20,426 nt of DNA, taken from positions 1 to 20,426 of IMG/VR virus record IMGVR_UViG_3300013297_000254; one strand, 5' to 3'. This stretch comes from a virus. Of the stretch, positions 2,974-19,011 are shown in pieces (positions within the stretch are counted from its first letter, which is position 1; each line of letters starts with the position of its first letter). A program made the position numbers and the translations under genes. Under the pieces are notes generated by a model, which saw only the letters and a program-made list of their open reading frames with translations, ran no database searches and had not been told where the DNA came from.

Positions 2974-3177
2974 TCAGCGGAACACGGCCACGAAAGCGCG
3001 GATCCATGCGTCGTTGATGACCCATGGGCACGGCAGCACGGTCGCCGCTGCCGCGGTGGTCGCCGCCGAAAGCGTTACCGCCGCCACGAGGGCACGCTGC
3101 CACAGCAGGTTGAGCATGGCCGCGTGCTCGACGGCTTCCGGCGATTCGGTTACAGGCGTGAAGGTGATGCTAGGCAT
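2974..3177 (-). CDS. Small membrane-anchored protein downstream of the PEP-CTERM gene
   Basis: A 67-residue protein, start ATG at 3177 preceded by a strong GGAGGA site. It has a hydrophilic N-terminal third and then a hydrophobic, Ala/Thr/Leu-rich helix (about residues 28-49). The start overlaps the end of the PEP-CTERM gene by 8 bp, so the two are co-translated. No family recognised. The arrangement suggests a partner of the secreted protein, but this is only positional. Confidence 0.6.
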   Translation of the reverse strand: MPSITFTPVTESPEAVEHAAMLNLLWQRALVAAVTLSAATTAAAATVLPCPWVINDAWIRAFVAVFR

Positions 3178-4009
3178 GGCGCTTCCTCCGGATGAAGGCC
3201 AGCAGCAGGAAACCTGCGCCGACCAGTGCGATGGAGCCCGGTTCCGGCGCCGCGAAGGCGAAGGTGCCGGGCAGGTAGGCCCATTCCTCAAAACCATCGG
3301 CGGCGTCCGCGCCGGGCGTGGTGCCGCCGGCATCGCCGAACGCGCTGGAGAACAGGATGCGGCTATCCGCTGCCAGCCCGATGAAGGCCGACGTCGGGAT
3401 CAGCACCCGCAAGTCATAGCCGAGTCCCGACCCGGCAAACAAGTTGTAGTCCAGCATCAAGGTGTTCTGCGGCCCGAGGGCATAGACAAGCTGCAGGTTG
3501 GGCAACAGATCGAGGTCCGCGAGGCTGGTGACGTTGGTGTTGTTGAGCATGAACGGCGCGGTCTCCCCCGACGTGCCGCTGCGGCCCCAGATCCGCAGCG
3601 TATCCAGCGACAGCAGGCTGTTGGTCCCCCCGTTCGGCTCGTTGATGTCGAGGAAGAAGGCGAAGTAGTCGATCCCCGCCAGCGTGATGGTGCCCAACTG
3701 ATTGAGTTGGAAGGTGGTGGTGAAGGTGTTGGTGTTGTCGCGCTTGTCGTCCAGCGGCAGGGTGTTGACGGTAGGGTCGTCGGTGGACACGCCCCCTTCC
3801 GTGCCGTTTTGCTGCAGGCTCAAGAACGGGGTGATGACCCCGCTGCCGATGTTGCTCAAGTTACTGGGGTTCTGGAACAGCGCCCCGCCGGCCGTGGTGT
3901 CGGTAGCGAAGGTGCAGGTGCCGCCGACCAGGAACAGGTTGCAGGTGGATCCGGCGAAGGCCGGTGCGGCGAGGATGGCCAGCGCCGCGGCGAGCAATAG
4001 ACGTTTCAT
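3170..4009 (-). CDS. Secreted PEP-CTERM sorting domain protein
   Basis: A 279-residue protein. It starts at ATG 4009 with GGGAGAT upstream and a classical Sec signal peptide (MKRLLLAAALAILAAPAFAG). The body is rich in Asn, Thr, Gly, Ser and Leu, with a cysteine pair soon after the signal (CNLFLVGGTC), typical of beta-rich secreted proteins. The C-terminus is a textbook PEP-CTERM signal: PEP motif at residues 255-257, a hydrophobic helix, then RRKR. In hosts with an exosortase (EpsH/XrtA), such proteins are sorted to the cell surface and linked to exopolysaccharide and floc or biofilm formation. The gene stands alone, opposite to the late genes and insulated by a terminator, like a lysogenic-conversion moron. 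The molecular function of the body is unknown. Confidence 0.88.
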   Translation of the reverse strand: MKRLLLAAALAILAAPAFAGSTCNLFLVGGTCTFATDTTAGGALFQNPSNLSNIGSGVITPFLSLQQNGTEGGVSTDDPTVNTLPLDDKRDNTNTFTTTFQLNQLGTITLAGIDYFAFFLDINEPNGGTNSLLSLDTLRIWGRSGTSGETAPFMLNNTNVTSLADLDLLPNLQLVYALGPQNTLMLDYNLFAGSGLGYDLRVLIPTSAFIGLAADSRILFSSAFGDAGGTTPGADAADGFEEWAYLPGTFAFAAPEPGSIALVGAGFLLLAFIRRKRHA

Positions 4010-4046
4010 GGTGATCTCCCTTGGGTTGGTGTTGCCTGCAGAGGGC

Positions 4047-4078: not shown

Positions 4079-4105
4079 AAAAAACAAGGGCCCCCGCAGG
4101 AGCCC
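4079..4105 (-). terminator. Rho-independent terminator of the 17-gene leftward operon
   Basis: On the minus strand GGGCTCC TGCG GGGGCCC forms a 7-bp stem (one G-U pair) with a 4-nt loop, followed by TTGTTTTTT. It lies 25 bp beyond the last gene of the operon and directly upstream of the PEP-CTERM unit, separating the two transcripts. Confidence 0.85.
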
Positions 4106-4129: not shown

Positions 4130-4369
4130 TCAATGGCCGCGGGTATTGTCGGTTGGCATGGCGTGGAAGTTCTCCGCGCTGGGCAGATCGAAGCCGGAGT
4201 CCAAGAGGTACTTGAGGATGGCCTGCTCGTCCTCGCCGTAGACAATCGAGATCGTTGGCAGGCCCGCCATGCCGTGCTTGAGGATCGGGTGGCCCTGCTG
4301 CAGCAACTCGAGGTTGCGGCGGGAGAGCCCGAGGATGATGGCGCCAGTGGTGGAGAGGCAGATGATCAT
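4130..4369 (-). CDS. Hypothetical phage protein, last gene of the leftward operon
   Basis: A 79-residue protein starting MIICLSTTGAIILGLSRRNL. It looks compact, with an N-terminal beta-strand-like segment and a central helix; I do not recognise a family. The start codon overlaps the previous gene's stop as ATGA (4366-4369), so translation is coupled. A strong terminator follows. Confidence 0.7.
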   Translation of the reverse strand: MIICLSTTGAIILGLSRRNLELLQQGHPILKHGMAGLPTISIVYGEDEQAILKYLLDSGFDLPSAENFHAMPTDNTRGH

Positions 4370-4668
4370 GTTGGCTGCGGCCCTACGGTGCCGCGGATCT
4401 CGGCGGTGACGTTGCCGGCCGGATCCTGCTTGTAGGCCGCGCCCTGGCGGGCGGAGCCGAAGATAGCGCCACCCTCCATGAACACGCCGACGATGGGGAT
4501 GCAGGACTCGTCGGGGTGGATCTCGCAGATCTCGCCGTTCTGCAGCACCACGGCGAGCCCGCGCATGTCCTTGAGCATCAGGTAGGGGGCGGAGCGCACG
4601 CTGCAGCCGAAGGTGTCGCCCGGGTGCAGCTGCGAGAAGGGAACAGGGGTGCGTAGCATGACTTGCAT
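4366..4668 (-). CDS. Hypothetical phage protein
   Basis: A 100-residue protein. ATG at 4668 is chosen because GGAGG lies 6 nt upstream; a second ATG three codons on has no such site. The sequence is probably a small beta-barrel type fold: FSQLHPGDTFGCS, AVVLQNGEICEI and CIPIVGVFMEGG look like strands, but no family was recognised. One base separates it from the zinc mini-protein gene upstream. Function unknown. Confidence 0.7.
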   Translation of the reverse strand: MQVMLRTPVPFSQLHPGDTFGCSVRSAPYLMLKDMRGLAVVLQNGEICEIHPDESCIPIVGVFMEGGAIFGSARQGAAYKQDPAGNVTAEIRGTVGPQPT

Positions 4669-15328: not shown

Positions 15329-15889
15329 ATGCTAGGCAAAGCCATGTTCGCCTTCGTCATCCCGCTTGACGGCACCCCCGTCGATCCCGGCTATGGCCGT
15401 CCCGCTTGGGGCGGGCGTCCCGATCAAGGGCTCCCAGGCTATGGGCACCCGGACCAAGGGCTCCCCGGCTACGGTCATCCGGACCAGGGCTTGCCCGGCT
15501 ATGGGCACCCCGACCAAGGGCTGCCTGGCCACGGTCATCCTGGCAACGCGCTGCCGATCGCGCCGGTGCGCCCCTCGCCGCCGATCACGCTGCCGCCCGG
15601 CACCTGGCCGCCGCAGCTGCCGCCCGGCGCCAACGTGCCGGACAACTCGCTGCCGCCCAGCTACGGCGGGCGACCGACGCCGCCGATCGTGATCCCGCCC
15701 GATCCGTCCATCGGCATCGAGCAGCCGATCTACCTGCCGACCTTGCCGCCCGGTACCGCGCTGCTGATCGCGCTGCCGCACGCCCAGCCGAAGGGCGACA
15801 CCCCACCCGGCACCAAGCCCGCCATCCTGGTGCAGTCGGGCCAGAAGCCGGTGCTGGTGTACGTGAGCGCAGCGCCCTCGCCGAAGTAG
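15329..15889 (+). CDS. Pro/Gly-rich decapeptide-repeat protein
   Basis: A 186-residue protein; ATG 15329 has AAGGAG upstream. Residues 31-70 are four tandem copies of PDQGLPGYGH (last copy PDQGLPGHGH), then a Pro-rich stretch with LPPGTWPPQLPPG and a hydrophobic C-terminal domain (AILVQSGQKPVLVYVS). Similar PDQGLPG-type proteins occur in podovirus-like genomes as hypothetical structural or accessory proteins. The repeat probably forms an extended spacer. The role is unknown. Confidence 0.7.
   Translation: MLGKAMFAFVIPLDGTPVDPGYGRPAWGGRPDQGLPGYGHPDQGLPGYGHPDQGLPGYGHPDQGLPGHGHPGNALPIAPVRPSPPITLPPGTWPPQLPPGANVPDNSLPPSYGGRPTPPIVIPPDPSIGIEQPIYLPTLPPGTALLIALPHAQPKGDTPPGTKPAILVQSGQKPVLVYVSAAPSPK
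15419..15538 (+). repeat. Four 30-bp tandem repeats encoding PDQGLPGYGH
   Basis: Four in-frame 30-bp units. Alternate units resemble each other more closely than adjacent ones (GGGCACC versus GGTCATCC at unit joints), indicating a 60-bp higher-order unit that was duplicated. Confidence 0.85.
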
Positions 15890-15890
15890 C

Positions 15891-16400
15891 GTGCTGCCGA
15901 CGCTGCTGCCGCCGCAGGCTCTGCGCAGCCTGCTCTACTACGCGGCACGGGCGCCGGCGGGCGCGATCGTCGAGGTTGGCGTGTACCAGGGCGGCAGCGC
16001 CTCCGCCCTGGCCACCTTGGGGCGCGAGCTGTACCTTTACGACACCTTCGAGGGGATGCCGGTCTCCGGGCCCTCCGACACCCACCCGCTGGGCCACTTC
16101 GCAGATTGTTCGGCGGCAGCGGTGCAGGCCGCCATCCCCTCGGCCCATGTGATCAAAGGGGTGTTCCCCGCCTCCCTGGTGGCGATGCCGCCGATCGCCT
16201 TCGTGCACGCGGATGGCGACCAGTACCAGACGACGAAGGACATCCTGCAGCACCTGCCGCCGCTGATGGTGAAGGGCGGCATGATCCTGTTCGACGACTA
16301 CCTCGTGGACGACTGCCAAGGCTGCACCCAAGCCGTCAACGAGTCCCGCTACCGGCTGCTGCTGCTGGCCGAGACCATGAAGGCATTGATCATCGTGTGA
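15891..16400 (+). CDS. TylF/MycF-type SAM-dependent methyltransferase
   Basis: A 169-residue protein from GTG 15891, one base after the previous stop. AIVEVGVYQGGSAS (25-38) is the SAM-binding motif, DTFEGMP (51-57) the acidic loop, HADGDQY (106-112) and ILFDDY (132-137) the metal-binding Asp residues of the TylF macrocin O-methyltransferase family. These enzymes methylate sugar hydroxyls with Mg2+. It is shorter than antibiotic-pathway TylF (about 250 residues), having lost N-terminal helices, but the core is intact. In a phage late region the target could be a glycan on the virion or host surface; this is inference. Confidence 0.8.
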   Translation: MLPTLLPPQALRSLLYYAARAPAGAIVEVGVYQGGSASALATLGRELYLYDTFEGMPVSGPSDTHPLGHFADCSAAAVQAAIPSAHVIKGVFPASLVAMPPIAFVHADGDQYQTTKDILQHLPPLMVKGGMILFDDYLVDDCQGCTQAVNESRYRLLLLAETMKALIIV

Positions 16401-17623: not shown

Positions 17624-17927
17624 GGGGGTTCCTGGTGGCAGAGGGTTGTTGGGAGCGCACGTAATCCCACAGCTTGTCTTTCACGCTGTGGGGGATGGCG
17701 AGCCACTCGGCGGTGGTCAGATTGAGCCAGCCGCAAATGTGCCGTTCGCGGGCGGGGGCGATGGTTTCCTCCTGCAGCTCGATGGGGAGCAACTCGAACA
17801 GATCGTAAAAGGCGCCCTCGGGATAGGCGAACTCGGCCTGCTCCTTGGCGTGCTGCGGGTCCTCGCCCTCACACAGCAGGTGGATGCGATCCGGGTAGCC
17901 GCTGATGAGGACGAGGTAGCGTTTCAT
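17613..17927 (-). CDS. Hypothetical phage protein
   Basis: A 104-residue protein; ATG 17927 overlaps the stop of the regulator gene as ATGA. MKRYLVLISGYPDRIHLLCE is a strand-loop start; the rest is helical and Trp-containing (GWLNLTTAEWLAIP). No family recognised. Confidence 0.65.
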   Translation of the reverse strand: MKRYLVLISGYPDRIHLLCEGEDPQHAKEQAEFAYPEGAFYDLFELLPIELQEETIAPARERHICGWLNLTTAEWLAIPHSVKDKLWDYVRSQQPSATRNPHAD

Positions 17928-18679
17928 CCGCGGCGGGACAGGTAGGGGTAGTAGGGATCGTAGAAGGCGCCCACGGCCGGGTGCAGCGGGGGAATCCACG
18001 TGGCCAGCCCCTGCTCGACCGCCTGCTCAACCCAAGCATCCATCCCGAACGTGTCCTGCGGCGGCGGGATGTCCTCGAAGCTGGCCGGCAGCAGCGGCAG
18101 CAGCTGCTCGGAGCGCGACGGATGGCGCATCTTGCGCAGCGCCTTGGCCTCGATCTGCTGGACGCGGGCGACGCTCAAGTCGAACATGCGCGCCACTTCC
18201 GTAGCGGTTTTCTCCTGCCCTCCGCCCAGGCCGAAGCGGTACACCAGCACCTTGCGCTCGTAGACGGTCAGGTGCTTGACGGTCTCGATCACCCGCAGCA
18301 CTTCGGCGGCGGTCTCCTTCTGCTGCAGCAGCGCATCCGGCCGCTGGTCGGCCTCCCGCAGCGCCGCCATCACTTCGCGGCGGTTCAGGGTGTATTGGGC
18401 GTGGTTGCTGGAGAGTGCCAGCTGGACCGCGGAGGGGAACAAGTCCTCCGGCGGCACCCCGCAGGCGTCGGCCACCTGCAGCGCCGGCCGGCGCCACTCG
18501 CCCGTCATCTGGTTGATCGGGTTGCGCTTGAGGTTGAGCAACTCGCCCACTTCCGACTGGCTCAAGTCGAACTTCCGGCAGAAGTCGGCCACGCTGTCGG
18601 CGCGGGCCTCGATCGCGGACAGCAAGGGGTGGTTGCGGACCTTGATCGAAATGCGGAATTCGTCGTCGTCCCGGTTCAC
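17924..18679 (-). CDS. XRE-like and sigma-70 region 4 fusion regulator
   Basis: A 251-residue protein from GTG 18679, with GGAG 7 nt upstream. Residues about 19-82 (LLSAIEARADSVADFCRKFD, LSQSEVGELLNLKRNPINQM) are a Cro/XRE-type helix-turn-helix with a PEDLFPS ending. Residues about 126-188 match sigma-70 region 4: VYERKVLVYRFGLGGGQEKT, TEVARMFDLSVARVQQIEAK, ALRKMRHPSRS. Regions 2 and 3 are absent, so it cannot replace a full sigma factor; similar fusions in Pseudomonadota phages are labelled sigma factors. It may contact host polymerase beta flap or -35 DNA to redirect transcription. Role inferred. Confidence 0.82.
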   Translation of the reverse strand: MNRDDDEFRISIKVRNHPLLSAIEARADSVADFCRKFDLSQSEVGELLNLKRNPINQMTGEWRRPALQVADACGVPPEDLFPSAVQLALSSNHAQYTLNRREVMAALREADQRPDALLQQKETAAEVLRVIETVKHLTVYERKVLVYRFGLGGGQEKTATEVARMFDLSVARVQQIEAKALRKMRHPSRSEQLLPLLPASFEDIPPPQDTFGMDAWVEQAVEQGLATWIPPLHPAVGAFYDPYYPYLSRRG

Positions 18680-18681
18680 GG

Positions 18682-19011
18682 TCAGCTCCCGTGCGGGTGG
18701 GCGACGAGCGCGTAGGGGCGCCCGTTGATCTGCACCGTTTCCACGGCACCCGCGGCGAGGATGCTGAACAGCGCGTGCTCCTCTTCGTCGAAGGTGTACT
18801 CGGCGTTTTCGGGCAGCTTGGCGAACTCTTGGATGTCGGTGGGCTCGCCGTCGGGGTCCTGCGCCAGCCGGTAGGCTTCCAGGTGCATCGGGCAGCCGGC
18901 AATGTAGATCGTCGCCAGTAGCCGCGTGGTGGGGTCCTGCACGGGGCCCGTGGGTTCCCACACGATGCGCTCGGCGTCGATGGAAGGGATGTTTTCGAGT
19001 GGGTGTTGCAT
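18682..19011 (-). CDS. Hypothetical phage protein
   Basis: A 109-residue protein; ATG 19011 has AAGGAG 10 nt upstream within a leader shared with other phage genes here. Acidic, with ENAEYTFDEEEHALFSILAA and VETVQINGRPYALVAHPHG. No family recognised. It ends 2 bp before the XRE/sigma gene, so the two are likely co-translated. Confidence 0.65.
   Translation of the reverse strand: MQHPLENIPSIDAERIVWEPTGPVQDPTTRLLATIYIAGCPMHLEAYRLAQDPDGEPTDIQEFAKLPENAEYTFDEEEHALFSILAAGAVETVQINGRPYALVAHPHGS

Follow-up and report, generated by a model that had tools for sequence, protein, structure and literature searches.

Organization of the PEP-CTERM locus

The window analysed here, a virus record of IMG/VR taken over its full 20,426 nucleotides (IMGVR_UViG_3300013297_000254), encodes on its minus strand a PEP-CTERM protein of 279 aa (3170–4009), identified by a TIGR02595 match and by reading of the sequence. 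The protein begins with a predicted signal peptide, residues 1–19 (3953–4009, minus strand), that ends at AFA|G (MKRLLLAAALAILAAPAFA|G); A19 is invariant in 20 homologues, and the AxA-type site is conserved in the homologues. At the C-terminus lies a complete PEP-CTERM tag (3173–3250, minus strand) of three parts, APEPGSIALVGAGFLLLAFIRRKRHA, in which Pro-Glu-Pro at residues 255–257 (codons at 3239–3247, minus strand) is followed by the hydrophobic stretch GSIALVGAGFLLLAFI and the basic tail RRKRHA. Specifically, the protein scores 18.9 bits against TIGR02595, above the cut-off of 16, and 20.4 bits against PF07589, 0.3 bits below the cut-off of 20.7, and an AlphaFold2 model places a helix at residues 257–278. 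The TIGR02595 match, the predicted signal peptide and the C-terminal PEP, helix and basic cluster of a PEP-CTERM protein are all present, in agreement with the anatomy proposed in an initial annotation of this DNA (signal peptide, PEP at 255–257, hydrophobic helix and RRKR tail).

The middle domain of the protein has no known relatives. The AlphaFold2 model is of middling confidence (pLDDT 69.6), and a Foldseek search with it returned no match at E < 0.001 in the PDB or BFVD. VIA-align gave a best Z of 4.9, with jelly-roll coats, Eph domains and carbohydrate-binding modules mixed among the matches, and no fold was assigned; a PDB sequence search with the protein produced chance-level matches only. 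The flocculation protein family PepA (NF033554) aligns over the full length but weakly, at 13.9 bits against a cut-off of 80.

The late genes, which extend to about position 2973, lie on the plus strand, opposite to the PEP-CTERM gene. The plus strand carries the C-terminal part of a 5,909-aa PLxRFG polyvalent phage protein (291–2435; profile match and longer contigs), the open reading frame of TM66, a 66-aa two-helix membrane protein at the end of the late genes (2451–2651), and a gene for a 74-aa protein with an Acb2/Tad1 hairpin domain (2651–2875; PF24729, E 2.9e-15). The 74-aa protein may counter CBASS or Thoeris as a cyclic-nucleotide sponge; PF24729 is above its cut-off in 6 of the 16 phage records with a PEP-CTERM gene, and in one of them (L009) it lies about 0.7 kb from that gene. 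On the minus strand, the PEP-CTERM gene is preceded by a Shine-Dalgarno-like AAGGGAG (4016–4022) and by a terminator-like stem-loop with a T run (4079–4105; stem 4105–4088, then TTGTTTTTTC), beyond which lie the two open reading frames (79 and 100 aa; 4130–4668, minus strand) that close the leftward early operon. The terminator-like site would stop the leftward early transcript just ahead of the PEP-CTERM gene. Downstream, an open reading frame for a 67-aa protein with one hydrophobic stretch (2974–3177, minus strand) has its start overlapping the stop of the PEP-CTERM gene and no family match in profile searches. The setting described initially, on the strand opposite to the late genes with a terminator ahead and a small membrane protein after, is the one that we find.

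Phage origin of the gene

The PEP-CTERM gene occupies the same place in three other contigs (L002–L004). The contig behind L004 (G003) contains the window phage as a closed circle of 70,724 bases, with a 200-base overlap, that encodes small and large terminase, portal and major head protein. In this other assembly, the gene sits inside the same phage and not in host DNA, and its homologues have terminase, portal and capsid genes around them, so the initial description of the gene as phage-borne holds.

An origin of the locus as host DNA or assembly artefact, in which a bacterial PEP-CTERM gene was spliced onto phage sequence, finds some footing in the false joins that these records do contain. 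At the left end of the window, an lpxB fragment that is not phage (1 to approximately 290, plus strand; profile match and contig comparison) is fused in frame with the giant PLxRFG gene. L002–L004 continue instead into the real gene of 5,909 aa, and the lpxB and PLxRFG gene sequences share just the short stretch CCAAGGCCGATCC at the junction; positions 1–290 are therefore a chimeric join, the sole such part of the window. The 109-kb G003 contig fuses two circular phages across 112 bases in which they are identical, and its second phage (about 38.5 kb), reached through this repeat, is likewise an assembly join; joins of this kind inflate viral records. For the PEP-CTERM gene itself, host contamination or a chimera was rejected because the gene lies inside the closed circle. 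Its identical placement in three other contigs and the phage structural genes that flank its homologues further leave an artefact with almost no probability.

In the second phage of G003, homologues of the TM66 and 79-aa genes lie close together with no PEP-CTERM gene between them, which indicates that the PEP-CTERM gene is accessory.

Relatives in unrelated phage backbones

A search of viral contigs with the window protein as query returned 8 loci, and the alignment as query returned 29. These relatives are 46–72% identical and span several phage backbones that have almost no other gene in common with the window, except that TM66 and Acb2-hairpin genes are shared in a few of the relatives' phages. 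The tag model PF07589 matches 26 of the 29 homologue records, 25 of them above the cut-off; the three records without a match are further copies of the phage in the window. In phages of about 40 kb (L005, L007, L022 and L027), the gene is found where the replication genes meet the convergent head genes, whereas in L013–L015 and L020 it belongs to the head operon, a few genes past the capsid gene, with the order terminase, portal, capsid and then PEP-CTERM gene in L014, L015 and L020. Further backbones with a relative are those of L006, L009, L012, L016–L018, L021, L024, L026, L030 and L031.

Among INPHARED phages, neither the window protein nor the L021 homologue nor a second PEP-CTERM family described below found a match. 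Peptide patterns of the window protein, searched across genomes representing about 85,000 species of bacteria and archaea, detected relatives in only two Planctomycetota chromosomes, both distant (33–38% identical) and both in genomes with an exosortase, and a profile search found a relative in 1 of 294 Planctomycetota genomes. Within the scope of the bacterial profile search, which covered Planctomycetota only, this suggests that the ectodomain family is mainly phage-resident. The backbone proteins of the window phage match phages of many hosts weakly.

The position behind the capsid gene in L013–L015 and L020, together with an unrelated PEP-CTERM gene located immediately behind the capsid gene in L102, is what would be expected of a virion-associated protein that is expressed alongside the head genes and ends up on the particle. 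However, a signal peptide and a membrane anchor direct a protein away from cytoplasmic assembly, and in most other phages the gene lies outside the head operon; we consider a virion role highly improbable. A spanin- or holin-like lysis protein, linking or breaking membranes at lysis by means of its N-terminal signal and C-terminal anchor with the PEP being incidental, is slightly easier to entertain and still very unlikely. A unimolecular spanin has in outline an N-terminal signal and a C-terminal helix, as the window protein does, and small membrane protein genes adjoin the PEP-CTERM gene in the window and in L007 and L008. Against this, the protein lacks the lipobox of a unimolecular spanin, since V, L, F or T precedes the conserved Cys, which follows the AxA site. 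Its tag is a complete TIGR02595-type tag with an invariant PEP, and the gene is distant from the TM66-type gene in L006 and placed among head genes in L014.

Phage morons are independently transcribed cargo genes with their own promoter and terminator, typically of temperate phages. The initial annotation regarded the PEP-CTERM gene as part of an insulated, moron-like unit, a description that fits in part: the gene has its own strand, a terminator ahead of it in the window and a sister phage that lacks it, but a sigma-70 promoter for the unit was looked for in the window without success, and in other phages the gene is located inside operons. Moreover, 15 of the 16 longer records are without a tyrosine or serine recombinase, so lysogenic conversion is not an obvious role. 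Because an integrase occurs in just one of the 16 and a serine recombinase in none, which leaves room for lysogeny by other routes, and because the gene has a late-operon location in some phages, we think that the PEP-CTERM protein acts (mostly) in the lytic cycle.

Conservation of the ectodomain and modularity of the tag

Conservation was assessed in 20 distinct family members that differ at up to about half of their residues. Within the C-terminal part, the three PEP residues are the same in all 20 members and form the single fully invariant stretch; the linker and helix residues vary, and a hydrophobic stretch followed by three to five basic residues is present in every member. The identity of PEP in all of these members, along with the PF07589 match in 26 of 29 records, argues that the tag of the window protein is more than a chance resemblance. 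The ectodomain shows a majority identity of 0.70 and many invariant residues, including two cysteines, and dN/dS is 0.15–0.53 for the five closest pairs, with a median pN/pS of 0.56 for all pairs. Judged from these comparisons, the ectodomain is under purifying selection, and the gene is retained for what its product does, tag included. A neutral passenger gene taken from a host and useless to the phage could vary in presence among sister phages, as seen for the second phage of G003; yet the many diverged and intact copies, all tagged and with dN/dS below 1, and the independent capture of other PEP-CTERM families make this reading scarcely credible. In L007, L022, L026 and L027, a PEPxx(Y/W)A-type tag replaces the common VPEPGSLALLG type on the same ectodomain family, and it is possibly fitted to a different exosortase.

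In five phages (L009, L017, L018, L024 and L026), an unrelated second PEP-CTERM gene lies beside the first, and in L066 the pair consists of one of those second families and a further PEP-CTERM family. The second PEP-CTERM protein of L009, used as a query, found no relative other than itself. The first genes of the pairs in L018 and L066 are homologous and the ectodomains of the second genes are unrelated, whereas the tag DNA (L018:10660–10739 and L066:11259–11338) is 81% identical over 80 bases ending at the stop codon. These side-by-side unrelated PEP-CTERM genes, and the tag DNA common to L018 and L066 under unrelated ectodomains, suggest that the tag is a module, retained as ectodomains are swapped. 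A permutation test of whether the two tags of one phage are more alike than tags of different phages gave 1 of 120 permutations for five pairs but 93 of 720 once a sixth pair is added, which does not establish such matching. Additionally, a scan with the pattern VPEPG(S/T)LALLG detected more viral contigs with other PEP-CTERM families, of which a part was checked for a purely viral nature and one (L106) looks otherwise; in L103 and L111, a gene of another family lies near the terminase genes.

The invariance of PEP alone within the C-terminal part, and its attachment to unrelated ectodomains even where the tag DNA is common, would also be expected if the protein were a decoy substrate that swamps the host exosortase, at the expense of the host's own PEP-CTERM proteins and of matrix formation, and whose ectodomain is of little weight. 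A mere decoy, however, would not require an ectodomain as well conserved as this one, and we regard the decoy as unlikely.

Host exosortase and proposed mechanism

No exosortase (PF09721) was found in the 29 phage records, some of which are fragments and among which the window's own phage is complete. In nearly all of these records the number of PEP-CTERM genes is one or two; in bacteria that have the sorting system, the median is 8, alongside EpsH (PMC1569441). Both observations point to use of a host enzyme, and the simplest reading is that the phage product relies on the exosortase of its host. Use of the host exosortase, as the initial annotation had it, is thus well supported, if indirectly, by the invariant PEP, the full tag in every copy and the phage records devoid of the enzyme. 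In the mechanism that we propose, the phage PEP-CTERM protein would be secreted by Sec and held in the inner membrane by its tag, the host exosortase would cut at or near PEP, and the cut protein would be displayed on, or released into, the surface polymer layer of a Gram-negative host with an exosortase system. We consider it probable, with moderate confidence, that the exported protein depends on the host exosortase and is displayed at the host surface.

The purpose of such display is more tentative. A surface change or a block of superinfection, the purposes suggested initially, is plausible. Our first guess, which is possible and short of likely, is that the beta-rich domain, once displayed, covers or modifies the cell surface in the lytic cycle, such that competing or newly released phages fail to adsorb to infected cells and debris. 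The second guess, somewhat less likely again, is that the exopolysaccharide matrix or host flocs are loosened or changed, aiding release; the host PEP-CTERM protein PepA shifts exopolysaccharide between bound and soluble forms and alters floc formation (PMC9850573). Considering the tag and the ectodomains together, soil phages may own a modular surface-display kit, in which exchangeable unrelated ectodomains on a common exosortase tag, often two per phage, are repeatedly acquired, matched to the host exosortase and used to control the host surface in lytic infection, a proposal that we hold to be nearly an even call.

Relation to known systems

In bacteria, PEP-CTERM proteins and their exosortases are well established, and sorting is tied to exopolysaccharide, flocs and biofilms; to our knowledge, the function of most PEP-CTERM proteins is not established. 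Phage surface proteins that exclude superinfection or re-adsorption, such as T5 Llp and lambdoid Cor, are lipoproteins or small membrane proteins. The window protein resembles them as an exported phage protein that alters the host surface, if the proposed purpose is correct, and we know of no superinfection-exclusion protein such as Llp or Cor that needs a host sorting enzyme of this kind. With the PEP-CTERM/EpsH sorting system of Gram-negative bacteria (Haft et al. 2006, PMC1569441), it has in common a signal peptide, a near-invariant PEP, a transmembrane helix, a terminal basic cluster and an ectodomain without known relatives; it differs in being phage-encoded, present in one or two copies per record and not accompanied by an exosortase gene. 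PepA of Zoogloea and Aquincola (NF033554; PMC9850573) bears the same tag, but PepA is the product of a bacterial gene, has another ectodomain and belongs to a family whose cut-off the window protein falls far below.

The initial annotation considered a PEP-CTERM cargo on a phage to be rarely discussed. A search, which scarcely covered subscription papers and bioRxiv preprints, found no literature linking PEP-CTERM with viral genomes, viromes or auxiliary metabolic genes, and the literature searched contained one passing listing, undiscussed in the passages concerned. In those passages, a hot-spring virus paper counts 13 TIGR03118-type proteins, horizontally acquired, with a putative exosortase interaction domain (PMC11003980). 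They are similar to the present proteins in being virus-encoded and in this putative domain; the passages only count them, and analyse no family, context, exosortase or mechanism. The window phage and many unrelated soil phages encode tagged, predicted secreted proteins without a detectable exosortase. If such proteins are a recurrent cargo of phages and depend on the host enzyme, sorted surface proteins would be part of phage–host conflict, the exosortase system would bear on infection within flocs, activated sludge and soil aggregates, phage genes would be tools for learning what the tag does, and the gene would mark phages whose hosts own an exosortase.

Other genes of the window phage

Farther along the window lie genes for a proline-rich repeat protein with GYGHPDQGLP units (15329–15889), for a TylF-type methyltransferase (15891–16400) and for a protein with a helix-turn-helix-like start and a sigma-factor-like middle (17924–18710; phrog_351). 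Similar Pro-rich proteins are encoded near the PEP-CTERM gene in L016, L017, L018, L021, L026 and L066.
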